Assembly (NCBI GenBank): GCA_025359485.1
Contig: JANYGA010000142.1
Coordinates: 1-33,397 of the forward strand
Reading direction: 5' to 3'
Source of the DNA: Rhodospirillales bacterium
Lineage (GTDB): Bacteria; Vulcanimicrobiota; Vulcanimicrobiia; Vulcanimicrobiales; Vulcanimicrobiaceae
DNA: 33,397 nt
This document shows, in pieces, positions 5,406 through 18,193 of this stretch. The position numbers and the translations under genes were made by a program. The notes beneath the pieces were generated by a model. That model saw only the letters and a program-made list of their open reading frames with translations. It was not told the DNA's origin and searched no databases. Numbering within the stretch: position 1 is the stretch's first letter; the number at the start of each line of letters is the position of its first letter.

Positions 5406-6094
5406 CGCCCAAAGGTGGCGTGGTCATCGAACATCACGTCGTCGGGGCACTCGCGTGCACGTGCACGATCGTCGCCGATCTCGATGCGGGCGAAGCGATC
5501 GTGGTCGACTGCGGCGACGACGTCGATCGCATCGTTACGCGACTCGCCTCGCTCGGCGTGCGCGCGACGCATCTCGTCCACACGCACGCGCACATCGATC
5601 ATATCGGGGCGCTCGGCGATCTCCGCGATCGCACGGGTGGCATCGGACTCTTGCATCCCGGTGATTTGCCGCTTTACGGAATGCTCGCCGAACAAGCGCG
5701 TTGGCTCGGGCAGCGCCCGCCGCGCGTCGTCACCCTCGATGGCGATCTCGCGGACGGCGACGTAATCGCGGCGGGTTCGGCGCGCCTCGAAGTCGTGCAC
5801 ACGCCGGGCCATACGCCGGGCAGCGTCTCGTTCGCGGTGACGACCGCGGGTGCCTCAGCGGAGATACCGACGACACTCCTCACCGGCGACACGCTCTTTG
5901 CGGGTGCGATCGGGCGCTGGGATCTCGGCGGCACGAGCATGGAAGATATCGTCGCGAGCGTGCGCGAGAAATTATTCGCCTACGATGATTCCGCCGTCGT
6001 CATCCCGGGTCACGGACCCACAACGACGATCGGGCGCGAACGCGCTACGAACCCGTACTTTACAGACGCGCGTCACGGAACGCGCGTTCGGTAA
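5390..6094 (+). CDS. Metallo-beta-lactamase-fold hydrolase (glyoxalase II-like)
   Basis: 234 residues starting at the ATG at 5390, which overlaps the flavin reductase end by 16 nt. The zinc-binding signature THAHIDH gives His66, His68, Asp70 and His71. Further ligands lie in HTPGHTPGS (His141), LTGDTLF (Asp167) and IPGHGP (His208). The full set indicates a two-metal hydrolase of the glyoxalase II/persulfide dioxygenase-like branch, typically acting on thioesters such as S-lactoylglutathione. The exact substrate is not evident. The last 35 nt overlap the convergent GGDEF-EAL gene. Confidence 0.88.
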   Translation: MHDSLAPKGGVVIEHHVVGALACTCTIVADLDAGEAIVVDCGDDVDRIVTRLASLGVRATHLVHTHAHIDHIGALGDLRDRTGGIGLLHPGDLPLYGMLAEQARWLGQRPPRVVTLDGDLADGDVIAAGSARLEVVHTPGHTPGSVSFAVTTAGASAEIPTTLLTGDTLFAGAIGRWDLGGTSMEDIVASVREKLFAYDDSAVVIPGHGPTTTIGRERATNPYFTDARHGTRVR

Positions 6095-9000
6095 CGAAGG
6101 CATCGAATGCGCTCGCGGCCAGCGGCAGGCTGAAGAGATAGCCTTGAAACGAGCGGCATCCCGCATCGATGAGGAACGCTCGCTGCTCCTGCGTTTCCAC
6201 CCCCTCGGCGATGACGTCGAGACTCAAGCTGCGGCCCAGCGCCACGATCGTGCGCGCGATGACGCCGTCGTTGGCATCGACGAAGACGTCGCGCACGAAC
6301 GACTTGTCGATCTTGAGTTGGTTCAGAGGTAAACGTTTGAGATAGGAGAGCGACGAGTAGCCCGTTCCGAAATCGTCGAGCGAGAACCCGATGCCGATCT
6401 CGCGGAGCGCACCCATTTTCGCGATGACCACGTCGAGGTCGTCGACGAGGACGCTTTCGGTGAGCTCCAAGACGAGCCGCTCGGGATTCGCACCATACGC
6501 CTCGAGCGTCTCGACGACATGGCTGACGAAATCGGCCTGCCGGAATTCGCGCGCGCTCACGTTGATCGAGAGCGTGAGGTCCGCGGTGTGCGACCGCTCC
6601 GACCACGACACGAGTTGCAAACAGGCGAGTTCGAGAACCCGTCGCCCGAGGGGAACGATGAGCCCCGACTCTTCGGCGATAGGAATGAAGTCGTTCGGAG
6701 CGACGGCACCGCGACGTTCGTGCATCCAGCGGACGAGGGCTTCGGCTCCGATTACGTCGCCGCTCGCGTCGACCTGGGGCTGCAGGACGACGTGGAATTC
6801 GTCGGCACGCAGCGCCGCGCGAATGTCGTCTTCGAGCGCGCGCCGCGAGATCGCCATCGCCTCCATTTTGGGGTCGAAGAAGCGTACGGCATTACGGCCC
6901 GCGCCTTTCGCTTGATACATCGCGAGATCGGCCTGTTTGAGCACGTCGTCGGTATTCTCACCACGCGCGAAGAGCGTGACGCCGATGCTCGGCGTGCTGT
7001 TGTGCGCGGAACCGCGGAGATCGTAGGGGGCGTTGGAGGCGACGAGGATATCGGTCGCGACGCGCTGTGCGGCTTTGGTCGCGGAATCGAACGACGCGCC
7101 GAGCGATTCGAGCATGATCACGAATTCGTCGCCGCCGAGCCTCGCGACGGTGTCGGTCGCTCGGACGCATGACTGCAATCGCGACGCGACCTCTTGAAGC
7201 AACAGATCGCCCATATCGTGCCCGAGGGTGTCGTTGAGCGTTTTGAAGTTGTCGAGGTCGAGGAAGAGCAACGCGCCGAATCCGTCACCGCCGTCGATCG
7301 CCTTCTTGAGACGCTGGACGAGACAGTGTCGATTCGGGAGATTCGTCAGGACGTCGTAAAACGCGAGATGCTCGATCTCGCGTTCGGCGATATTGCGCGC
7401 GGTGATATCGGTGTCGATCGCGAGAATCGATCGCGCTTCGCCGCCGTCGTCGCTCACGAGCGACCACCGGCTCTCGACCCAGACGAGCGACCCGTCTTTA
7501 CGACGATGCTCGACTTCGCCGTTCCAAAAGCCGAGCGCGTGTACGGAAGCCGTCGCTTCTTTTAAGCGTTCGCGATCGTCGAAGAACGCATCGCCGAGCG
7601 TCGACCCGAGGACCTCGTCTCCACGCCAGCCGTAGAGACGCTCCGCGCTCTTATTCCAGAACGAGATCCGTCCGTCGATGTCACGAACCACGATCGCATC
7701 GCGCGCGCGATCGAGCCACGAGGCTTGATCGGCGATTCGTGCGTCGGCGACTTGCCGCTCGAGTTCGGCTGCAGCGCGGGCGACGAAAATTTTGAGCGTG
7801 GATGTCGTGAACTCGAGTTCGGCGATCGGTTCGCGAAAAAAGACCATCATCGTCGCGAGCATCGTGCCGTTCGAGTCGCATAGGCGCCACCCGACGACCG
7901 ATTGCGACCCGATGCTCGCCGCGACGGAGCATTGCGGGTACCGTTCGCTCAAGCGCGCTTCGACGATGAAGACCTCGTCGCTGCCGACGGCTTCACACGG
8001 CGAGCCATCCGACGTGAAATCCAGATTGCCGAGCAATGTCCCGTCGACGACGGCCACGAGCGTTCGCAACTTGGCCACATCCGTCGGGTGCTGACGGATA
8101 ACGAATGCCGCTTGCGCGCCGACCGCTTCCGCCATATTCACGACGAGCCGTTCGAGGAATTCCGTCCCCGCTCGCGCCGAGACCGCCGACGAAATCTTTA
8201 ACACCGCATCTTGAATGCGCTGCCGTTCGACTTGTACGCGCAGATGCTCGATGCCGAATGCGAGATCGCGCGCCATCTGCTGTAGCAGATCGAGCTCCGC
8301 CTTCGCGGGCTTACGCACGTCGAATGCGTGGAGGCCGAGGACTCCGAAAATTCGGCCCTTCGCGCGTAGCGGCAAATCGACGACGCTGCGATAACCACGC
8401 TCGAGCGCGGCGGGGCGATACTTCGCGAATCGCGTGTCGCGTTCGATGTCTTCGACGACGACCACGTCGCCGGTGCGGATCGTCATGCCGGCCGCGCAAT
8501 GACCCGACGGCAAATTCGCATCCCATCCCAAATGAAGATCGCCGAAATAATCGTCGTGATGCCCCGCGATCCCCACGAGCTCGATCGACCGCTCGGCATC
8601 GTCGCGGGCGAATCCGACCCACGCCATCGCGTACCCACCGACGTCGACGGCGAGGGCACAGATATCGCGAAGAAGTTGCTCTTCCGACGTCGCACGCACG
8701 AGCACTTCGTTACAGCCGCTGAGCATCTTGAGCGCGCGATTCATGCGCATCATCTCGAGTTCGACCGATTTGCGATCGGTGATATCTTGTAACGCGCCCA
8801 TGATGCGGCCGCGAGACCGGGCCGCCTGGCCGATCACGCGCACCCAACGCCGGCGCCCGACATGCGTTTCGATCTCGACCTCGATATCGAAGCCGGTGCG
8901 CGACCGATGACCTCTCTGCGACGCGTGGCGCATGCGATCGAACGCATCGCCGAGCAAAAATACCTTCGCTTCTTGAAAGGTCGGTCGCCAGCCGCGCGGC

Positions 9001-9602
9001 ATGTCGAAGATCGAGCAAACCTCGTCGGAGAGAACGAAGAAATGGTCGTTAATATCGAACGACCAACCGCCGAGATGCGCGGCTTCTCCCGCGAGCCGCA
9101 ACAACGATTCGCTCTCTTCGAGCAGCTGTGACTCACGCTTGCGATCGCCGATATGTTCGACGAATCCGACGAATTGCGTCGGCTCCCCGCGCGCGTTGCG
9201 AATGAGCGTCAAGGTCACGGCGCACCAAACGGGCCTGCCGTCCTTGTGCACGTAGCGCTTCTCCCACGCCGACGATGCGAGTTCGCCCGCGACCATTCGT
9301 GCGCGCGACACCGCTTCTGCGGCGCGGTCGTCGGCATGCGTCAATGCAGAACAGGTCATCTCGAGCATTTCGCGCGGGGTATAGCCGACGATATCGCACA
9401 GCCGCCCGTTAGCCTGTAGGAATCGCCCTTCGAGCGATACGAAGCACATGCCGATCGCGGCATGCTCGAAGAGCAGCGCGAAGCGCCGTTCGCTTTCGTC
9501 GAGCGCGCGCGCTGCACGGCGCTTCGAGACGCGCGATGAGACGCTTCGAGGAAGCGGTACGATCACCGAATCTCGTTTTCGCAGCGCGGTACGTATGAGC
9601 AT
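6060..9602 (-). CDS. PAS-PAS-GAF-GAF-PAS-GGDEF-EAL c-di-GMP signalling protein
   Basis: 1180 residues with no membrane segment, so a soluble sensor. Domains in order are PAS (about 35-155), PAS (157-275), GAF (300-455, after NRALKMLSGCNE), a second GAF-like domain (465-615), PAS (625-738), GGDEF (743-912) and EAL (920-1175). The diguanylate cyclase motif GGDEF (823-827) is intact and the allosteric I-site RxxD (Arg814-Asp817, RATD) lies five residues before it. The phosphodiesterase domain keeps the EAL motif (954-956), NVSAREF and DDFGTGYSS. Both making and breaking of c-di-GMP are therefore possible. The paralogue at 9734-12361 lies directly upstream in transcription order. The N-terminal 30 residues are Arg-rich, so the start could be a little further downstream. 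Confidence 0.93.
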   Translation of the reverse strand: MLIRTALRKRDSVIVPLPRSVSSRVSKRRAARALDESERRFALLFEHAAIGMCFVSLEGRFLQANGRLCDIVGYTPREMLEMTCSALTHADDRAAEAVSRARMVAGELASSAWEKRYVHKDGRPVWCAVTLTLIRNARGEPTQFVGFVEHIGDRKRESQLLEESESLLRLAGEAAHLGGWSFDINDHFFVLSDEVCSIFDMPRGWRPTFQEAKVFLLGDAFDRMRHASQRGHRSRTGFDIEVEIETHVGRRRWVRVIGQAARSRGRIMGALQDITDRKSVELEMMRMNRALKMLSGCNEVLVRATSEEQLLRDICALAVDVGGYAMAWVGFARDDAERSIELVGIAGHHDDYFGDLHLGWDANLPSGHCAAGMTIRTGDVVVVEDIERDTRFAKYRPAALERGYRSVVDLPLRAKGRIFGVLGLHAFDVRKPAKAELDLLQQMARDLAFGIEHLRVQVERQRIQDAVLKISSAVSARAGTEFLERLVVNMAEAVGAQAAFVIRQHPTDVAKLRTLVAVVDGTLLGNLDFTSDGSPCEAVGSDEVFIVEARLSERYPQCSVAASIGSQSVVGWRLCDSNGTMLATMMVFFREPIAELEFTTSTLKIFVARAAAELERQVADARIADQASWLDRARDAIVVRDIDGRISFWNKSAERLYGWRGDEVLGSTLGDAFFDDRERLKEATASVHALGFWNGEVEHRRKDGSLVWVESRWSLVSDDGGEARSILAIDTDITARNIAEREIEHLAFYDVLTNLPNRHCLVQRLKKAIDGGDGFGALLFLDLDNFKTLNDTLGHDMGDLLLQEVASRLQSCVRATDTVARLGGDEFVIMLESLGASFDSATKAAQRVATDILVASNAPYDLRGSAHNSTPSIGVTLFARGENTDDVLKQADLAMYQAKGAGRNAVRFFDPKMEAMAISRRALEDDIRAALRADEFHVVLQPQVDASGDVIGAEALVRWMHERRGAVAPNDFIPIAEESGLIVPLGRRVLELACLQLVSWSERSHTADLTLSINVSAREFRQADFVSHVVETLEAYGANPERLVLELTESVLVDDLDVVIAKMGALREIGIGFSLDDFGTGYSSLSYLKRLPLNQLKIDKSFVRDVFVDANDGVIARTIVALGRSLSLDVIAEGVETQEQRAFLIDAGCRSFQGYLFSLPLAASAFDAFVTERAFRDARL

Positions 9603-9733: not shown

Positions 9734-12361
9734 TCAGACCGGGGCGCGCTCGAGCACGAAACGTTCGAAGCTATCCGAATCGAGCGGTCGGCTGAAATAG
9801 AATCCTTGGAACGAGCGGCAGCCCGCGCCACGTAAGAACGCGAGTTGCGCTTCGTCTTCCACGCCCTCCGCGATGACGTCGAGATTTAGCGTCTGACCGA
9901 GCGAGACGATGATCTGTGCGATGATGGCGTCGTTCGAATCGGTCGTCACATCGCGCACGAACGAGCGATCGATTTTAAGTTGGTTTAGGGGTAAATGTTT
10001 GAGGTAGGACAGCGACGAGTAACCCGTGCCGAAATCGTCGAGTGAGAAGCCAACGCCGAATTCGCGAAGGGCGATCATCTTTGCGATGAGCACCTGAACG
10101 TCGTCGACGAAAACGCTCTCGGTGAGTTCGAGAATGACGCGATTGGGATCGGCTCCCGAGGACCGGATCGTCTTGATCGTATGGTCGACGAAATCCGCAT
10201 GACGGAACTCCCGGAAGCTGACGTTGACGGAGAGTTTGAGTGCCGCGAGATGCGGCCGCGCCGACCAGGCGACGATCTGCGCACACGCACTCTCGAGCAC
10301 ATGTCGACCGAGGGGCACGATGAGACCCGATTCCTCGGCGATGGGAATGAAATCGGTCGGGGCGACGGTGACGCCGTTGGCTCGCCGCCAACGGACGAGA
10401 GCTTCGGCTCCGATGACGTTTCCCACATCGTCGACGAGCGGCTGGTAGGCGAGCACGAGTTCGCGATCGCGAATGGCGACGCGCAGCGCTTCTTCGAGCG
10501 CGCGGCGTCTCGTGACCGTCGCTTGCATCTCGGGATCGAAAAATCGGATCGCGTTGCGACCGGCGGCCTTCGCTTCGTACATCGCGAGGTCGGCCTGTTT
10601 TAAAAGATCGTCCGAATTGGCGCCCTTGGTGAAGAGCGTGATCCCGATACTGGGCGTGCTGCTGTGCTCGTAACTTCCCAGAACGAACGGCGCGGCAAAC
10701 GCCGTGAGGAGTTCCAAGCCGACTTCCCGTGCGCGAATCGACGCCGCCTCGGCGGAATCGTCGAGATTTTCGAGCATCACGATGAACTCGTCGCCTCCGA
10801 ATCGCGCGACGGTATCGCTTTCGGAAACGATCGCTCGCAGGCGAGTAGCCACCTGTTGCAAGAGCACGTCGCCCTTATCGTGACCGAGCGTATCGTTGAG
10901 CGTTTTGAAATTATCGAGATCGATGAAGAGCAACGCACCGATCCCACAATCCACTTCGAGCGCCGATTTGAGACGTTGGATCAGCGCGAGACGATTGGGC
11001 AATGCGGTGAGTGCGTCGAAAAACGCGAGGTGCTCGATCTCACGTTCGGCGGCATTGCGTTCGAGCTGCGTCCGCAGATGGCCGATCCCGAAAGCGAGAT
11101 CGTCGGCGAGTTCTTGTAAGAGGTCGAGTTCGGCCTGTGGCGGCGAGACCACCTCACTCGTGTAGAGACTCAAAAGCCCGAACGTCCGATCGCCCTCTCG
11201 TAACGGAAGACCGATAAAACCGCGATATCCGCGAGCGTTCGCAACATCACGCCATGGTGCGAATGCCGAGTCCGATAACAAATCCGGAATGACGACCGCA
11301 CGACTCGATCGGATGGTGCGCCCCGCACCACCGCAACCGTACGGATCGTCCTCGTTCCAGCTCAACCGTAATAGCGAAAAATAGTTATCGACGTGCCCGG
11401 CGGACGCGATGGGCTCGATCGTCTTTGCGTCGTCGTCGCGAGCGAAGCCCACGAAGGACATGACGTATCCACCGACATCGACCACGAGTTTCGCGATGTC
11501 GGCCAAAAGCACGCGCTCGTCGGTGGCGCGCACGAGCACTTCGTTGCAGCCGCTCAACATTTTGAGCGCGCGGTTGATGCGCACGAGCTCGCACTCGGCC
11601 ATCTTCTGCTCGTGAATATCTTGCACCGCGCCGACCAGGCGCTTCCGTTTCGCGTCGACCGTCCCCATCGCACGAATCCAACGCGACACGCCTTGCGCGG
11701 TCTCGATCTCGAGCTCGAGATCGAAGCCTTCTCCCGTCGCGATGCTGTGATCGACCGCAGCGGCTACCATTGCAGACGAATCGGGCTTGTAGAACGCGAG
11801 CGCCTGGGCGAGCGTCGGCGAAGTGCCGAGCGGCACGCCGTAAATCGCGCAGACCTCATCGGACCAAGTGATCGCCTCGGTCTCGATATCGAATGCCCAA
11901 CCGCCCAGATGCACGGTACGGCCCGCAATCCGCAGGAGCGATTCGCTCTCCAATAATTTTTGCGCCGAGTTTTTGCGCTCGCTGATATCTTCGATGATCC
12001 CGACGAACTGCGTGGGCTCGCCACGATCGTCGTCGGTCAACGTGAGCGTCAAATTACACCAGACCGCCGTCCCGTCTTTACGGACGTACCGTTTTTCCCA
12101 CGTCGACGCGCGGTCGCCGCCGGAGAGCATTCGCAGCGTCATCGTTTTTTCGAAAACGCGGTCGTCGTCGTGCGTGAGATCGACGCACGTGGTAGCCAAT
12201 AGTTCTTCGAGCGTGTACCCGACGATCTCGCACAGGCGAGCGTTTGCGTGTACGAATTTCCCGTCGAGCGCGACGAAACACATCCCGACCGCAGCATGAT
12301 CGAAGAGCATCTGGAAGCGACGCTCCATGCTCAAGGTGCGGGTGAGATCGTGTTCGATCAC
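9734..12361 (-). CDS. PAS-PAS-GAF-GGDEF-EAL c-di-GMP signalling protein (paralogue)
   Basis: 875 residues. Domains are PAS (about 12-130), PAS (135-252), GAF (265-430), GGDEF (440-607) and EAL (618-870). The GGDEF motif (522-526) and EAL motif (653-655) are intact, as are NVSFREF and DDFGTGYSS. It aligns along its length with the protein at 6060-9602 (shared HAAxGMCFV, NRALKMLSGCNEVLVRAT, LNDTLGHD and LPLNQLKID) but lacks the second GAF and third PAS domains. The position of the RxxD I-site reads SESD (513-516), so product inhibition may be lost. The start is taken as GTG at 12359-12361; Met12 is an alternative, and neither has a clear Shine-Dalgarno sequence. Confidence 0.92.
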   Translation of the reverse strand: MIEHDLTRTLSMERRFQMLFDHAAVGMCFVALDGKFVHANARLCEIVGYTLEELLATTCVDLTHDDDRVFEKTMTLRMLSGGDRASTWEKRYVRKDGTAVWCNLTLTLTDDDRGEPTQFVGIIEDISERKNSAQKLLESESLLRIAGRTVHLGGWAFDIETEAITWSDEVCAIYGVPLGTSPTLAQALAFYKPDSSAMVAAAVDHSIATGEGFDLELEIETAQGVSRWIRAMGTVDAKRKRLVGAVQDIHEQKMAECELVRINRALKMLSGCNEVLVRATDERVLLADIAKLVVDVGGYVMSFVGFARDDDAKTIEPIASAGHVDNYFSLLRLSWNEDDPYGCGGAGRTIRSSRAVVIPDLLSDSAFAPWRDVANARGYRGFIGLPLREGDRTFGLLSLYTSEVVSPPQAELDLLQELADDLAFGIGHLRTQLERNAAEREIEHLAFFDALTALPNRLALIQRLKSALEVDCGIGALLFIDLDNFKTLNDTLGHDKGDVLLQQVATRLRAIVSESDTVARFGGDEFIVMLENLDDSAEAASIRAREVGLELLTAFAAPFVLGSYEHSSTPSIGITLFTKGANSDDLLKQADLAMYEAKAAGRNAIRFFDPEMQATVTRRRALEEALRVAIRDRELVLAYQPLVDDVGNVIGAEALVRWRRANGVTVAPTDFIPIAEESGLIVPLGRHVLESACAQIVAWSARPHLAALKLSVNVSFREFRHADFVDHTIKTIRSSGADPNRVILELTESVFVDDVQVLIAKMIALREFGVGFSLDDFGTGYSSLSYLKHLPLNQLKIDRSFVRDVTTDSNDAIIAQIIVSLGQTLNLDVIAEGVEDEAQLAFLRGAGCRSFQGFYFSRPLDSDSFERFVLERAPV

Positions 12362-12463: not shown

Positions 12464-13144
12464 TCACACGTCACGGAGCATTCCCCTGCGTTCTTTACTC
12501 GAAAATGGGCCACGCTCGACGTAGGTCGAGATACGGCGCACCGTCACAATCCGGATCGCGGGTAACAACTGTTCGCCCTGCGAGGGCGCCTCATGAATTT
12601 TACGCACGACCGCCATCCCACGGATCACGTGACCGAATACGGCATAGCCTGCCCCGAGCGGACCGCCCGCGTTGAGATACCGAGCGTCGCCGAGATCGAG
12701 AAAGAATTCCGTCGTCGCCGAATTGGGATCGCTCGTACGTGCCATGGCGATCGCGCCATCGGTATTGCTGAGGTGCGTCTTTGAGGTCGGCTCCAGCGCG
12801 ATCGTGGCGTTCGTGTTGCCGGCTTTGGGATTGAGTCCGCCCTGAATGACTTCGAAGGGCGCCGCGGGCTCGTTCTTTTTGATCACCGTCCGGTAAAATT
12901 CCGTATCGTCGTACGTCTTTGCATCGACGTACCGCAAGAAATTTTTCGTCGTGATCGGAGCCTTCGCTGCTTCGAGACGCACGACGATCGTCCCCAGAGA
13001 CGTCGTCATCGCGACGTCGACCGTCGAGCCGCTCCGGACGCCGGCGTGAGACGTCCGCGTCGTGGCGGCAAGACCGACCGTCGCCGTCGAAGACGCCGCG
13101 AGCGCGGCGCCGAGCACTACGATCCCAAGATACGAACGTATCAT
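12464..13144 (-). CDS. Exported cyclophilin-type peptidyl-prolyl cis-trans isomerase
   Basis: 226 residues. A signal peptide (about 1-26, ending near GLAATT) points to export. The cyclophilin core follows, with TTSLGTIVVRLEAAKAPITTKNFLRYV, FYRTVIKKNE, EVIQGGLNP, IAMARTSDPNSATTEFFLDL and YAVFGHVIRGMAVV. The Arg in FYR and the Gln in IQGG are the usual catalytic-site residues. It would isomerise Xaa-Pro bonds in extracytoplasmic proteins. It follows the U-type scaffold gene after 45 nt, so it may be co-transcribed with sufR, although the function differs and the linkage may be accidental. Confidence 0.9.
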   Translation of the reverse strand: MIRSYLGIVVLGAALAASSTATVGLAATTRTSHAGVRSGSTVDVAMTTSLGTIVVRLEAAKAPITTKNFLRYVDAKTYDDTEFYRTVIKKNEPAAPFEVIQGGLNPKAGNTNATIALEPTSKTHLSNTDGAIAMARTSDPNSATTEFFLDLGDARYLNAGGPLGAGYAVFGHVIRGMAVVRKIHEAPSQGEQLLPAIRIVTVRRISTYVERGPFSSKERRGMLRDV

Positions 13145-13189: not shown

Positions 13190-13717
13190 CTAGCGCAACT
13201 TGATGAGGACTTTGCCTTCGTCGGCGGCAACGGTCGGCGCGTTGCCGTCGTCTTGCGACGTTTTCCCATTGCCCGCCATCGTCGCGGTCGTCGAGATCGC
13301 GGCTTCGCGAGCGGCGGCGGCCATCATGTCGTCCGTAATTTTGCCTGCGGCACGCTTCGTACGGAAGTCGTCGATCGCGGTCTGCAACGCCACGCGCGAA
13401 CGCTCGGGATAATCTTTTTTCTTCTCGGGATAGCCGTCGAGCTGCGCTTCGATATCGGCGTCGCTAATCGCGTAGGCGGCATCGAGCGATTTGCCGAGCG
13501 CCAGTTCGACGACGATGCTGCACGTCGCCGTGCCGAATCCGCATCCCGTCGTAAAGTACGACACGTCGACGATCTTCTCGTCCGGCCCCACTTTGAGGAA
13601 GTACGTATACATGTCGCCGCACGAGTCGCTGAAATACTCACCGCTCGCCATCGCGTTTTCCATCGATCGGAAGCCCGGGCGTTTTTCGACGAGCTCTTGA
13701 AATTTCACGAAGTTCAT
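13190..13717 (-). CDS. NifU/IscU-type Fe-S scaffold homologue lacking the third ligand Cys
   Basis: 175 residues. The ATG at 13715-13717 overlaps the sufR stop as ATGA, and a strong Shine-Dalgarno sequence (AAAGGAGA) lies inside sufR. The fold is that of the U-type scaffold: SCGDM with Cys33, and TTGCGFGTATCS with Cys59 and an extra Cys66. The third canonical Cys (HCSxLA in IscU, about residue 105) is absent; the equivalent helix reads PERSRVALQTAIDDF. The C-terminus (about 135-175) is an unusual Ala/Thr/Gly/Asp-rich tail. It may be a scaffold with altered ligation, a cluster carrier, or a regulator partner of SufR. The true SufU of the locus is at 17762-18193. Confidence 0.8.
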   Translation of the reverse strand: MNFVKFQELVEKRPGFRSMENAMASGEYFSDSCGDMYTYFLKVGPDEKIVDVSYFTTGCGFGTATCSIVVELALGKSLDAAYAISDADIEAQLDGYPEKKKDYPERSRVALQTAIDDFRTKRAAGKITDDMMAAAAREAAISTTATMAGNGKTSQDDGNAPTVAADEGKVLIKLR

Positions 13718-14409
13718 GCGATCGAGGTCTCCTTTAAGCGTGCGGCCGGGACGGCCGCACTGGCTGCGCCAACCGGCGTGCCCGCTGCGATTTCGAACCG
13801 GCACGCATCGCCGCCGGTTGCAATGGATTCGATCTGTCGGGTTTCCGAGGAGACCGTATCGTGAAGGACGGTATGGATGATCGCGCAGACTTCCGGGTGC
13901 TCGCCGACCGTTTGGCCGTATGGGCAGTGATGTTCGCGCAATTCGATGCCGCCGCCCGGCGTCTCGACGACATCGGCCTCGACGCCGTTCGCGCGTAGGA
14001 GCGCGGCGAGTTCGTACGTGCGGCCGCGAATGTCGGGCGCGGTCAGTTTCTCGCGATATTTCGCGGCTGCGCGATCGCCGAGCTTGCCGAGGACCGTTTC
14101 GAGCGCGGAAACGCCGAACGACTCGCGAACTTCCGTGAGCACGGCGTTGAGCATCTTATCGTACTGCTGGGGAAAGAGCGCGTCGGCGGCCGGTGCGAGC
14201 GAATATTCGAGCGTCGGCTTCGTGGGGCCGCGGCGAACGGAGCGCTCCATCACGTAGCCATCGCGCTCGAGCGTCAAGAGCTGTTGCCGAACGGCGTTGG
14301 TTGAAATCCCGAACGACTCGGCCAAATCGACGGCAGATGCGCTATGACGGCGCCGCAGCTCCGTCACGATCTTGCCCTTCGTCGATTGAAAAAATCGCGT
14401 GTCGTTCAT
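13714..14409 (-). CDS. sufR: SufR-type Fe-S sensing transcriptional repressor
   Basis: 231 residues. An N-terminal winged helix (about 10-70; SAVDLAESFGISTNAVRQQL is the recognition part) is followed by a dimerisation and ligand domain. Three cysteines lie at 162, 175 and 203, spaced CX12CX27C. That spacing matches the three cluster-ligand cysteines described for cyanobacterial SufR (Cys164, Cys177, Cys205). SufR represses suf genes when it carries a [4Fe-4S] cluster and releases them under iron or oxidative stress. Placement divergent from sufC, 88 nt apart, fits control of both directions from one operator region. The gene is coupled by ATGA overlap to the U-type scaffold downstream. Confidence 0.92.
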   Translation of the reverse strand: MNDTRFFQSTKGKIVTELRRRHSASAVDLAESFGISTNAVRQQLLTLERDGYVMERSVRRGPTKPTLEYSLAPAADALFPQQYDKMLNAVLTEVRESFGVSALETVLGKLGDRAAAKYREKLTAPDIRGRTYELAALLRANGVEADVVETPGGGIELREHHCPYGQTVGEHPEVCAIIHTVLHDTVSSETRQIESIATGGDACRFEIAAGTPVGAASAAVPAARLKETSIA

Positions 14410-14423
14410 GGTGGTGGTGCGAC

Positions 14424-14450
14424 AATAGCATCAATAGCGAAGATAGTCCA
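14424..14450. repeat. Three 9-bp-spaced ATAG repeats in the sufR/sufC control region
   Basis: AATAGCATC (14424), AATAGCGAA (14433) and GATAGTCCA (14442) share ATAG at exact 9-bp steps. They lie 15 nt upstream of the sufR start codon and next to the sufC -35 box. Binding of SufR here is a guess. The CAAC-N6-GTTG palindrome reported for cyanobacterial SufR is not seen. Confidence 0.35.
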
Positions 14451-14458
14451 TACTTTCC

Positions 14459-14488
14459 TTGACTTTCTCGGCCGATTTCCCGTATCAT
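14459..14488 (+). promoter_or_regulatory. Sigma70-like promoter of sufC
   Basis: TTGACT (14459-14464) and TATCAT (14483-14488) are separated by 18 nt. The sufC ATG is at 14498, only 9 nt after the -10 box. Transcription would therefore begin at or just before the start codon, giving a leaderless or nearly leaderless mRNA. No Shine-Dalgarno sequence precedes the ATG, which agrees with this. Confidence 0.6.
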
Positions 14489-14497
14489 CGGGCAGTT

Positions 14498-15271
14498 ATG
14501 AGCGAGCGTGGACTACAAATTTCCGGCCTGACCGCAAGTGTCGATGGCAACGAAATCCTCAAGGGTATCGACCTCGTCGTACCGCCCGGTAGCGTGCAAG
14601 CGCTCATGGGCCCCAACGGAAGCGGTAAATCGACGCTCGCTTTTTCGATCGCGGGCCATCCGAGTTACAACGTGACCGGCGGCTCCGTGAAGGTCGATGG
14701 CGAGGAGATGCTCGGCGTTGCGCCCGACAAGCGCGCGAAAGCCGGACTCTTTCTGTCATTTCAGTATCCTGCGGCGATCCCGGGCGTGTCGGTTGCGAAC
14801 TTCATTCGCACGGCGCGCCAAGCGGTCAAGCCCGACGACCTCACGCCATCGAAATTTCGCGCGATGATCTTCGAAAAGCTCGACGTCCTCGATATGGATG
14901 CCGCTTTTCTCTCACGCTACGTCAACGACGGATTCTCCGGCGGTGAAAAGAAGCGCCTCGAAATGTTGCAACTCGCGATGCTCGCACCGAAATATGCGAT
15001 CCTCGACGAGACGGACTCGGGCCTCGACGTCGATGCACTCAAAGCCGTCGGCGCCTCGGTCAATGCGCTCCGCGCGAGCGACGCGGGCAAGGATATCGGC
15101 TTTCTCATCATCACGCACTATCCGCGCATCTTGCAGTACATCCAGGCGGACGCCGTGCACATCATGATGGACGGTCGCGTCGTGAAATCGGGCGGTCCCG
15201 AGCTCGCCAACGTCATCGAACGCGAAGGCTACGATAAGATTCGCGAAGAGGTCGCCGCGAGTGTCGGGTAA
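14498..15271 (+). CDS. sufC: SufC, ABC-type ATPase of the SUF Fe-S assembly complex
   Basis: 257 residues, a typical SufC. The Walker A motif is GPNGSGKST (38-46) and the signature is FSGGEKKR (146-153). Walker B is AILDETDSGLD (167-177), with the SufC-specific ETDSGLD in place of the transporter EPTSALD. ITHYPR (205-210) contains the switch His. SufC drives rearrangement of the SufB/SufD scaffold during cluster building in the cytoplasm. The ATG at 14498 is chosen because it follows the promoter directly and gives the standard N-terminus. The gene heads the operon sufC, sufD-like, sufS, sufU, and overlaps the next gene by 11 nt. Confidence 0.95.
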   Translation: MSERGLQISGLTASVDGNEILKGIDLVVPPGSVQALMGPNGSGKSTLAFSIAGHPSYNVTGGSVKVDGEEMLGVAPDKRAKAGLFLSFQYPAAIPGVSVANFIRTARQAVKPDDLTPSKFRAMIFEKLDVLDMDAAFLSRYVNDGFSGGEKKRLEMLQLAMLAPKYAILDETDSGLDVDALKAVGASVNALRASDAGKDIGFLIITHYPRILQYIQADAVHIMMDGRVVKSGGPELANVIEREGYDKIREEVAASVG

Positions 15272-16517
15272 TACGAGCGTCGCCGTTACGGGCGTGACCA
15301 AAAGTGCGCTCGACGCGCTCATCGCTCAGCACGGCGAAGGTTCGATTCCCGCAAGCTTGCGCTACGACGCACTCGCGCGTTACGAAGAGCTGCCCGTGCG
15401 CTCGTCGATCCGCGGCGGACGCACGTGGAAACACGATCTCGCGAAACTTGATCTTAGCGGCATCGTGCCGTTCGAAACGCACGCGGGTGCCGAACTCTCG
15501 CTCGAAACGCTGTCACCGGCCGCGCGGGCGAAAGGCGTCACGATCGAGCGATTTTCGGTCGCGCGCGAACGCCATCGCGTTGCATTCGACGCGGCGTTCG
15601 GGTCGGCCATCGTTACGCGCGACGATAAGTTTGCATCGCTCGCACTCGCTTTCACCAATCACGGCGTCTTTATCGACGTGCCGGCGGGCGTCGCAATCGA
15701 CGAACCGCTGCTGGTCGGCTACGAAGCGCGCGAGACGGCGATTTTCCCCTACACGCTCGTCGCGCTCGGTGCCGGCGCGCGTGCGACGGTCGTCGAGCGG
15801 CTATCGGGCATCGCGGATGCACCGCTGGTGTGCGGAATCGCGGAATTCGTGCTCGCCGAGCGCGCGCATCTCACCTATTCCGTCGATCAACGCCTCTCGA
15901 CGCAGACGCGTGCGATTTTCACGCGACGCGCCGTGCTCGGTGACGACGCCCAACTCGATATTTCGTTCGCCGAACTCGGCGGCAAGCACATCGTCTCGCG
16001 CTTTCGTTCGGCCGAAACCGGTCGTGGCTCGCGGACGGGCGTCGTCGCGCTCTTCTTCTCCGACGGCGATCAACACATCGATATCGAGACCGAGACCGTG
16101 CATGCAGCCGCGAATACGCGCTCCGAAACGATCGTTCGAAGTGCGGGAACCGATCGCGGCCAGGGCCGGTATCTCGGCAATATCAAGATTTTGCCCGACG
16201 CGCATGGTGCCGATGCATCGCTGCGCGACGACGCACTCTTGCTTTCGGAAAAAGCGCATATCGATTCGGTCCCGGCACTCGAGATCGCCGCGAACGACGT
16301 CAAAGCGTTTCATGGCGCGACCGTCGGCGCGATCTCTGAAGATGAGATCTTTTACGCGCAGAGCCGCGGCATCGCGCGTGCCGATGCGGAACGCATGATC
16401 GCGCTCGGCTTCTTCGAACCCGCCGTCTCGCGTTTTCCCATCGGCGAACTGCGTGACGAAATTCGAACCGCGCTCGAAAACAAAATCGCTTCGAAAGCGG
16501 TCCTACACAGCGTATGA
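15261..16517 (+). CDS. sufD: SufD-like (SufB/SufD family) Fe-S scaffold subunit
   Basis: 418 residues from a GTG overlapping the sufC end. The N-terminal third is SufD-like; the beta-helix core and the C-terminal SufB/D block follow, with DVKAFHGATVG (346-356), DEIFYAQSRGI and ERMIALGFF. The HGATVG His351 matches the SufD His (E. coli His360) involved in cluster formation. The Cys two residues before it in E. coli SufD is Ala349 here, and the only Cys in the whole protein is Cys191. No separate sufB is present in this locus, although SUF operons normally carry sufB beside sufC and sufD. Either sufB lies elsewhere or this protein works as the only SufB/D-type subunit. Confidence 0.88.
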   Translation: MSGNTSVAVTGVTKSALDALIAQHGEGSIPASLRYDALARYEELPVRSSIRGGRTWKHDLAKLDLSGIVPFETHAGAELSLETLSPAARAKGVTIERFSVARERHRVAFDAAFGSAIVTRDDKFASLALAFTNHGVFIDVPAGVAIDEPLLVGYEARETAIFPYTLVALGAGARATVVERLSGIADAPLVCGIAEFVLAERAHLTYSVDQRLSTQTRAIFTRRAVLGDDAQLDISFAELGGKHIVSRFRSAETGRGSRTGVVALFFSDGDQHIDIETETVHAAANTRSETIVRSAGTDRGQGRYLGNIKILPDAHGADASLRDDALLLSEKAHIDSVPALEIAANDVKAFHGATVGAISEDEIFYAQSRGIARADAERMIALGFFEPAVSRFPIGELRDEIRTALENKIASKAVLHSV

Positions 16518-17761
16518 TCGCCACTCGCGACACCCGCGCCGCCACCATCGCCGCCGACTTTCCGATCCTCGCGCAGACGACGTCGCGCGGGAAACGGCTA
16601 GCATTTTTGGATTCGGCCGCGAGTTCGCAGAAGCCGCAAGCCGTCATCGACGCGCTCGTGCACTACTACACGCACGATAACGCGAACATCCATCGCGGCG
16701 TGTACGAACTCGCGACGCGCGCGACCGACGCGTTCGAAGGCGCGCGCGCGAAAGTCGCACGCTTCATCAACGCAGCCGAACCCGCCGAAATTGTCTGGAC
16801 GCGCAACTCGACCGAAGCGATCAATCTCGTGAGCTTCACGTGGGGCGTCACGAACCTCAAACCGGGTGACGTCATCCTCACGACGGAACTCGAACATCAT
16901 TCCAACCTCGTGCCGTGGCAGCTGCTCGCCGCAAAGACGGGCGCGGAACTCCGCTATATCACCGTCGATGCCCATGGCGTTCACGAACTCGGCGATCTCG
17001 ATGAGAAGCTGCGCGGTGTCAAGCTGCTCGCATTTACCGACGTCTCGAATACGCTCGGAACGATCGCACCGGTAAAGATGCTCGTCGATGCGGCGCACGC
17101 CGTCGGTGCGGTCGTGCTCGTCGATGGATCGCAATCCGTACCGCACATGAAGGTCGACGTCCGCGCACTCGACATCGATTTTTTCGTTGCAAGCGGCCAT
17201 AAGATGTGCGGCCCGACGGGAATCGGATTCTTATACGGCAAGCGCTCGTTGCTCGAAGCGATGCCGCCGTTCCTTACCGGCGGCGATATGATTCGCGAAG
17301 TCGGCTACGAGAAAACCTCGTTCAACGAACTGCCGTGGAAATTCGAAGCGGGCACGAGCAATATTGCAGACGCGGTCGGCCTCGGCGCCGCCGTCGACTA
17401 TCTCGAAGCCGTCGGGATGGATTGGATCGCCGAACACGAGCGTTCTCTGACCGCCTACGCGCTCGATTCGATGGAGCCGCTCGTCGCGCGCGGCCTCGCG
17501 ATCTACGGTCCCAAGGATCGTGCGAAGCGATCGGGTGTGATCTCGTTCAACTTCGCCGATATTCACGCGCACGACATGGCCTCGATCCTCGATACCGAGG
17601 GCGTTTGCGTTCGCGCCGGACACCATTGCACGATGCCGCTCATGGATAAGATGGGCTGGCCCGCAACGGCGCGCGCGTCGTTCTATCTCTACAACACCGA
17701 GCAAGATGTCGACCAACTCATCTTCGGTCTCGAGAAAGCCGCGACGGTCTTTAAGCTCTAA
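16514..17761 (+). CDS. sufS: SufS cysteine desulfurase
   Basis: 415 residues, a group II (SufS/CsdA-type) PLP enzyme. It removes sulfur from L-cysteine as an enzyme-bound persulfide for Fe-S cluster building. The PLP lysine is Lys230 in ASGHKMCGPTG, and the catalytic cysteine is Cys372 in the short loop RAGHHCTMPLM, typical of SufS. Other marks are NANIHRGVYELA, TRNSTEAINLV, ELEHHSNLVPWQ and KFEAGTSNIAD. It starts in an ATGA overlap with the preceding gene and ends immediately before sufU, so all four genes are tightly coupled. Confidence 0.96.
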   Translation: MIATRDTRAATIAADFPILAQTTSRGKRLAFLDSAASSQKPQAVIDALVHYYTHDNANIHRGVYELATRATDAFEGARAKVARFINAAEPAEIVWTRNSTEAINLVSFTWGVTNLKPGDVILTTELEHHSNLVPWQLLAAKTGAELRYITVDAHGVHELGDLDEKLRGVKLLAFTDVSNTLGTIAPVKMLVDAAHAVGAVVLVDGSQSVPHMKVDVRALDIDFFVASGHKMCGPTGIGFLYGKRSLLEAMPPFLTGGDMIREVGYEKTSFNELPWKFEAGTSNIADAVGLGAAVDYLEAVGMDWIAEHERSLTAYALDSMEPLVARGLAIYGPKDRAKRSGVISFNFADIHAHDMASILDTEGVCVRAGHHCTMPLMDKMGWPATARASFYLYNTEQDVDQLIFGLEKAATVFKL

Positions 17762-18193
17762 ATGGAAGATTTTTACAAAGAGTACATCCTCGATCACTAT
17801 CGTAACCCGCGAAACTTCGGCGAACTCGAAGCGCCCGATGCGACCGCGGAAGACCTCAATCCGCTCTGCGGCGACCGCATCCGTTTCGACCTGCGCATCG
17901 ACGGCGACGGTCGCGTGAGCGATGTGAAATTTTCCGGCAAAGGTTGCGCGATCAGTCAGGCGTCGGCGTCGATGCTTTCGGAATCGCTCAAGGGCGAGAA
18001 ACTCGAAGACGTCGCGCGACTCTCGCAAGACGTCGTCTTAGAGAACGTCGGCATCGGCATCAGCCCCGCGCGCATGAAATGCGCGATGCTCGGCCTCAAA
18101 GTCGTAAAATCCGCGGCGCTCGGTGAAATCGCGACGTGGCCCGATGAGGTGCCCGTCGCCCCGTCCAGGGCGGTAAACGACACATCCCGCTAG
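17762..18193 (+). CDS. sufU: SufU, sulfur acceptor/scaffold partner of SufS
   Basis: 143 residues; the ATG follows the sufS TAA with no gap. All three conserved cysteines are present: Cys36 in NPLCGD, Cys62 in GKGCAISQAS and Cys107 in RMKCAMLGL. In SufU these, with an Asp, bind zinc and accept the persulfide from SufS. The N-terminus YKEYILDHYRNPRNFG is standard. The last 20 residues are Pro/Ala-rich. This is the canonical U-type protein of the locus and contrasts with the Cys-poor homologue at 13190-13717. Confidence 0.94.
   Translation: MEDFYKEYILDHYRNPRNFGELEAPDATAEDLNPLCGDRIRFDLRIDGDGRVSDVKFSGKGCAISQASASMLSESLKGEKLEDVARLSQDVVLENVGIGISPARMKCAMLGLKVVKSAALGEIATWPDEVPVAPSRAVNDTSR

Follow-up and report, generated by a model that had tools for sequence, protein, structure and literature searches.

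Gene organization of the suf locus

The window (the whole stretch of 33,397 nucleotides that was analyzed) comes from a genome of the class Vulcanimicrobiia (hereafter, the class) and contains a suf locus in which sufR and a gene encoding an IscU/NifU_N-type protein (hereafter, U2) lie on the reverse strand, and sufC, sufD, sufS, and sufU lie on the forward strand (Table 1). The U2 reading frame starts with an ATG at 13717 and stops at 13190-13192, and the ATGA overlap reported by the first-pass annotation is present: the TGA of sufR overlaps the start codon of U2. The SufR protein scored 65.8 bits against TIGR02702 (a model named SufR_cyano), under the equivalog cut-off of 178.8. The three cysteines in its C-terminal part (C162/C175/C203) occur in 95 of 97 distinct SufR copies, the other two being gapped there, and their spacing presumably resembles that of cyanobacterial SufR.

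Table 1 Coordinates of the genes, codons, and sequence elements of the suf locus in the window.
Feature	Position	Strand	Evidence or remark
U2, protein of 175 aa with IscU/NifU_N fold, third ligand Cys missing	13190..13717	-	ORF, Pfam, AF2, Foldseek, VIA
Conserved C-terminal motif GKVLIKLR of U2, after low-confidence linker	13193..13216	-	alignment, pattern search, low linker pLDDT
Asp102-Tyr103 of U2, replacing the IscU His-Cys pair	13409..13414	-	invariant 101/101; ungapped alignment
Cys66 codon of U2, probably a buried small-residue site	13520..13522	-	Cys in 98, Ala in two, and Ser in one of 101; S or A in IscU/SufU relatives
Cys59 codon of U2 (GCG motif)	13541..13543	-	invariant 101/101
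Cys33 codon of U2 (CGD motif)	13619..13621	-	invariant 101/101
sufR, Cys162/175/203 (CX12CX27C)	13714..14409	-	TIGR02702; three Cys
Candidate SufR operator AGATAGTCCATACTTTCCTTGACTTTCT, overlapping TTGACT -35-like box	14441..14468	.	dyad conservation
sufC, divergent from sufR-U2	14498..15271	+	divergent in 87/87 loci
sufD	15261..16517	+	SUFBD_core match
sufS, closest solved relative B. subtilis SufS (5xt5)	16514..17761	+	sequence comparison with solved chains
sufU, Cys36/62/107	17762..18193	+	TIGR01994 104.9 bits, cut-off 92.5

The SufU of the window passed its family model, though it has no 21-23 aa insert between the second and third Cys (Cys62 to Cys107: 45 residues), the feature by which SufU is marked in passages of PMC10216065. 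Outside the suf locus, at G000:C152, is the strongest SUFBD match in the genome of the window, probably sufB, and the loci of one family in the class (f3: L114-L122, L124-L126) contain two SUFBD genes between sufC and sufS. Elsewhere in the window, two adjacent, similar large proteins on the reverse strand (6060-9602 and 9734-12361) have, by eye from the translations, the look of PAS/GAF-GGDEF-EAL signaling proteins and are perhaps a tandem duplication.

Family membership and distribution of U2

U2 matched the Pfam model NifU_N (PF01592) with 71.7 bits, above the curated cut-off of 22, but missed the cut-offs of the NCBIfam models iscU (44.4 of 192.4 bits) and NifU_clost (equivalog; 70.2 of 187.9 bits) and of the SufU model TIGR01994 (31.3 of 92.5 bits). 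Given the family-level match, U2 is not a new kind of protein. It is one of just two NifU_N proteins in the window's own genome, the other being SufU. The AlphaFold2 model of U2 (mean pLDDT 87.4, pTM 0.78; input of 42 of the 101 sequences) had IscU as its top Foldseek matches (7c8m, TMt 0.86, rmsd 1.5). Comparison by VIA gave Z 21.6 and rmsd 2.5 over 125 residues with Archaeoglobus fulgidus IscU (4eb5_C), compared to Z of about 13 to 16 with most SufU chains, and the hhalign match of U2 to SufU was partial and weaker than that to IscU/NifU.

Homologues were collected as 101 distinct class sequences from 124 loci, excluding two copies of the window and one fragment. In a tree of 17 of these with 11 IscU/NifU and 10 SufU sequences, which has long branches and no fixed root position, U2 forms one clade on the IscU/NifU side, apart from SufU (100/100 on the separating branch). 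The stem of the U2 clade is 2.13 changes per column and the branches within are much shorter, so that the history of U2 is apparently one burst of change, then freezing.

A scan with exact 8-residue words, which misses distant third-Cys-less NifU_N proteins in other phyla, found 76 U2 loci among 84,980 species (one genome per species). Their titles name Eremiobacterota, Eremiobacteria, Vulcanimicrobiota, or WPS-2, or simply say 'bacterium'; a single bin (L033), titled 'Rhodospirillales', has the same gene order. No U2-grade match was found in 19 other-class genomes of the phylum. Among the titles and abstract openings of the literature on SufR, IscU, SufU, and NifU or on Eremiobacterota/WPS-2, we recognized no report of a NifU_N subfamily that is encoded directly after sufR throughout a class and has Asp-Tyr as an invariant pair in place of His-Cys.

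Metal-site residues of U2

The only cysteines in the window's U2 are Cys33, Cys59, and Cys66. The first two, which had been proposed to match IscU/SufU ligands, are invariant in 101/101 homologues, as are Asp35, Lys100, Asp102, Tyr103, Pro104, and Arg106. Codons vary synonymously at all seven counted invariant positions (e.g., Tyr103: TAT 73, TAC 28), and the invariance is therefore not due to a lack of change. In ungapped phmmer alignments to solved IscU chains, the third ligand Cys corresponds to Tyr103 and the preceding His to Asp102 ('KKDYP'), and when a profile of U2 was compared by hhalign with IscU/NifU from other classes of the phylum, the third-ligand region was likewise ungapped. Functional IscU/NifU scaffolds have three ligand Cys and a His before the third, whereas U2 has Tyr103 and Asp102 at these positions in 101/101 homologues. 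The claimed replacement of the third Cys thus holds across the class, although it lies just before the PERSRVALQ helix and not within it. Neither Tyr nor Asp commonly serves as a cluster ligand.

A search of the class for homologues with the canonical third Cys, which the first-pass annotation had set as a refuter, returned none (0/101); the residue was kept in all 13 out-of-class IscU/NifU/SufU proteins that were read. One of these 13, a NifU-like protein (L138, genome G086), has HGD for CGD, so that its first ligand Cys is gone and the others are kept.

Cys66 lies seven residues past Cys59, inside a helix predicted at 60-73 in the AlphaFold2 model. Ala or Ser at this position in 3/101 homologues and the small residues found there in relatives speak against a role as the third ligand. 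Because Cys66 is not invariant, the proposed conserved set of Cys33, Cys59, and Cys66 does not hold in the strict sense, and Cys66 is probably a core residue rather than a ligand.

Loss of the persulfide-receiving cysteine

In human ISCU2, as described in parts of PMC11021402, the persulfide passes from NFS1 to Cys138; the C138S, C95S, and D71A variants show background persulfide levels only, and C69S and H137A keep 70% or more. U2 retains the equivalents of ISCU2 Cys69, Asp71, and Cys95 and is without those of His137 and Cys138, so it should not take up sulfur the IscU way. A protein that does not build clusters would agree with this loss of the persulfide-receiving residue. Given that the same locus encodes a SufU with three cysteines and a SufS resembling that of B. 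subtilis, the sulfur route would be complete without U2.

The C-terminal tail

A linker follows the core in 86/101 homologues; it is variable and mostly Ala/Pro-rich, and in the U2 model of the window pLDDT is below 50 for the majority of residues 145-156. The tail ends in a consensus of about GK-[LV]-[LTV]-I-x-L-[RH]. The C-terminus of all 85 complete tailed homologues is [IV]-x-L followed by one to four residues (exactly so in 80, with one to three more in five); a further tailed homologue (L100) is cut by a contig end and stands outside this count. The 15 tailless homologues, all from family f3, are 134-135 residues long and keep the sufR pairing, showing that the tail is dispensable for it. 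The added Gly/Asp/Thr-rich tail of the first-pass annotation is accordingly not a general feature of these proteins.

The C-terminal motif may be a docking strand. In a DNA pattern search, 24/24 matches in class genomes were at U2 C-termini (one per genome), and two genomes outside the class had one match each. A docking tag shared with other proteins was rejected because, within the class, the pattern occurs only at U2 ends. The motif also resembles, in our estimation, the cargo tags of encapsulins; targeting to encapsulin was rejected with PF04454 found in 0/79 class genomes and 1/19 other genomes of the phylum.

Conservation of the sufR-U2 pair

Adjacency of homologues to sufR, whose lack the first-pass annotation had set as its other refuter, was found throughout the readable loci: sufR is directly upstream of U2 on the same strand in 90/90 of them (91 were chosen; in the 91st, L081, the contig ends 103 bases upstream of U2). 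Both genes are present in 75/79 class genomes and both are missing from the same four (63-80% complete). Spacing is tight, with the four-base ATGA overlap in 25/90 readable loci, any overlap in 35/90, and no more than 35 bases between the two genes in 86/90. U2 is duplicated in genome G074, and either copy is accompanied by a separate SufR; the second pair (L123, G074:C10) is on a 3.3 kb contig ending just upstream of sufR. U2 and sufR are on separate contigs in G021, where sufR ends about 120 bases before the contig end, and a frame-broken SufR in G003, with unknown bases in the stretch, was read as an assembly gap.

No gene family recurred across loci as a third operon gene after U2 (next largest cluster: 13/80 loci). 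Two large clusters of downstream genes were discarded when reading of the sequences revealed chained, unrelated high-GC frames, and a cyclophilin gene downstream in the window (12464-13144) was discarded as a locus partner since it was matched only in copies of the window.

Because sufC is divergent in every locus counted, linkage alone is not enough to identify SufR as the partner of U2. Furthermore, U2 is one clade with the whole suf locus conserved, and the sufR pairing is thus one inherited arrangement and not many independent events. A review (PMC8593673) confines SufR, in its relevant passages, to Cyanobacteria and some Actinobacteria; the SufR-like regulator of these 75 class genomes is outside the groups named there.

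A conserved element between sufR and sufC

The region between sufR and sufC contains the element AGATAGTC-N12-GACTTTCT. The best dyad score was at least 10 of a maximum of 11 in 78/95 distinct intergenic regions vs 1/1900 shuffles, a lenient control since the dyad consensus was drawn from the same, related sequences. Elements of family f3 score 7 to 9, most of them with the right arm GACTATCT. At up to three mismatches, the element is a single site in the window's genome. In cyanobacteria, the divergent suf operon is under repression by SufR, which is also autoregulated, according to passages of PMC7058544, and we infer that one operator would control both sufR-U2 and sufCDSU in the class. In the stretch 14459-14498, a putative promoter, TTGACT-N18-TATCAT, stops 9 bases short of the ATG of sufC, and the sufC message may therefore be nearly leaderless.

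Other Fe-S carriers in the class

Matches to A-type carriers were rare, with PF01521 found in 1/79 and TIGR00049 in 2/79 class genomes (G000-G078), all of them partial and in genomes 74-79% complete, compared to 6/19 other genomes of the phylum; the PF01521 search was silent in 5/14 control genomes, including a cyanobacterium, so the absence from the class may partly reflect sensitivity. With this reservation, A-type carriers (SufA/IscA/ErpA) appear to be nearly absent from the class. ParA/Mrp-like ATPases, a family broader than Mrp, were present in 31/31 genomes and Nfu in 19/31. Among the families searched, U2 (75/79) is the most regular small candidate carrier.

Proposed role of U2 and rival explanations

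Our preferred reading, to which we assign a probability of about 0.45, is that U2 is a non-assembling, two-cysteine IscU derivative that relays an Fe-S cluster or iron in the SUF/SufR circuit. It is based on the fold, the ligand replacement, the invariance of the site, the pairing with sufR, the intergenic element, and the scarcity of A-type carriers. An IscU/NifU_N-type protein would have been recruited to the SUF locus by the class ancestor and would have lost the sulfur-receiving half of its site (His-Cys to Asp-Tyr) while keeping Cys33, Asp35, and Cys59, which would have ended cluster building. We infer that a U2 homodimer, with two Cys per subunit, holds a cluster made by SufBCD, or iron, and passes it on. 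The client would most likely be SufR, with which U2 would share its mRNA and operator; further apo-proteins may be served as well, since the class is nearly without A-type carriers. When cluster supply falls, SufR, which would bind at the element, would become apo, and sufR-U2 and sufCDSU would be derepressed together; the loop would be closed by U2 supplying SufR with a cluster again. Elements of such a scheme exist elsewhere: E. coli IscR needs IscU for its maturation (in parts of PMC9973013), and NfuA uses a degenerate A-type domain without a ligand Cys for targeting (in parts of PMC8593673). Counting against the relay are the presence of other carriers (ParA/Mrp-like ATPases and Nfu), the single origin of the sufR pairing, the possibly limited sensitivity of the A-type search, and the rarity of Tyr and Asp as ligands of clusters.

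In a narrower role, the view of the first-pass annotation, U2 would work for SufR alone, either loading it or reporting cluster status to it as an adaptor, and would be no general carrier. The premises of a sufR link and a missing third Cys stood up, whereas the inclusion of Cys66 among the ligands did not. Perfect co-occurrence (75/79 both, 4/79 neither), the bicistron in 90/90 loci, the duplicated pair in G074, and the lack of a conserved third gene downstream all favor service to SufR alone, but sufC is linked just as tightly (87/87), a distant SufR-like protein occurs without U2 in 1/19 other-class genomes, and the SufR passages of two reviews (PMC8593673, PMC7058544) mention no such partner. 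On this balance, we regard the SufR-only role as rather doubtful. We also think it unlikely that U2 is a dedicated sensor loader, whose sole task would be to take the SufBCD cluster to SufR and in which Asp102/Tyr103 would make the held cluster labile; if true, SufR would sample the output of assembly via a private adaptor.

Explanations without a cluster were weighed against the same residues and genes. U2 could act on the sulfur or metal side, binding zinc or iron at Cys33/Asp35/Cys59/Asp102/Tyr103 and modulating SufS/SufU. The standing metal ligands of ISCU2, Asp71 and Cys95, correspond to U2 Asp35 and Cys59 (parts of PMC11021402), SufU has a Cys-Asp-Cys zinc site (parts of PMC10216065), and Asp and Tyr would fit hard metals; however, the known sulfur pair, SufU and SufS, is already in the locus and the persulfide-receiving Cys is gone, which makes this role unlikely to a slightly greater degree than the dedicated loader. 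A ligand-free co-repressor or anti-repressor that binds SufR via the C-terminal motif would account for a conserved end behind a low-confidence linker, unique to U2 among the pattern matches in the class, and for genes that overlap or adjoin sufR, yet it is improbable when 15/101 homologues without the tail are still paired and the Cys and Asp residues of the metal site are invariant. Finally, the IscU fold and the three cysteines of most members would suit a canonical scaffold that assembles [2Fe-2S] clusters as IscU does, with Tyr103 or Cys66 taking the place of the third ligand. Such a scaffold is highly improbable: Cys66 is replaced in 3/101 homologues and is located in the next helix, seven residues beyond Cys59, ISCU2 C138S is without persulfidation (parts of PMC11021402), and the IscS-type partner gene, found beside some IscUs of the phylum, is absent from the suf locus.

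Comparison with known systems

U2 is like the IscU/NifU N-terminal domain (PF01592) in its fold, in its CGD and GCG motifs, in its phylogenetic side, and in having no SufU-type insert (C59 to Y103: 44 residues). Unlike that domain, it has Asp-Tyr for His-Cys in all 101 homologues, the signature SDSCGD and CGFG[TVI]AT, an optional tail, and SufR as its gene partner instead of IscS. With SufU, a zinc sulfurtransferase, it shares the superfamily, the type of locus, and the Cys-Asp-Cys part of the metal site, but it has neither the third Cys nor the 21-23 aa insert, its clade is separate (100/100), and a true SufU lies beside it. The A-type domain of NfuA (parts of PMC8593673) is a similar case of an Fe-S fold that serves targeting minus a ligand Cys, although its fold is unrelated and it is fused to a cluster-holding Nfu domain. 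The A-type carriers (SufA/ErpA/IscA), like U2 as proposed, are cluster carriers of the SUF system, but they have another fold and family. In the IscU-IscR feedback of E. coli (parts of PMC9973013), a scaffold matures its own regulator; that scaffold is canonical, whereas here a scaffold-derived paralogue lies in the operon of the regulator.

Implications for Fe-S regulation in the class

To our knowledge, little is established about how clusters are supplied to Fe-S regulators such as SufR. In these little-studied soil bacteria, an altered IscU-type protein is paired with SufR and, to judge from its sequence, probably carries finished clusters rather than making them. The SUF system of the class also seems to operate with hardly any A-type carriers, and the class extends the range of SufR beyond the Cyanobacteria and some Actinobacteria named in passages of PMC8593673. 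Across the class, a scaffold-derived protein is fixed beside a sensor, its sulfur-receiving residue removed and the replacement frozen, and sufR-U2 would thus be a clean two-protein system that separates sensor loading from cluster building.
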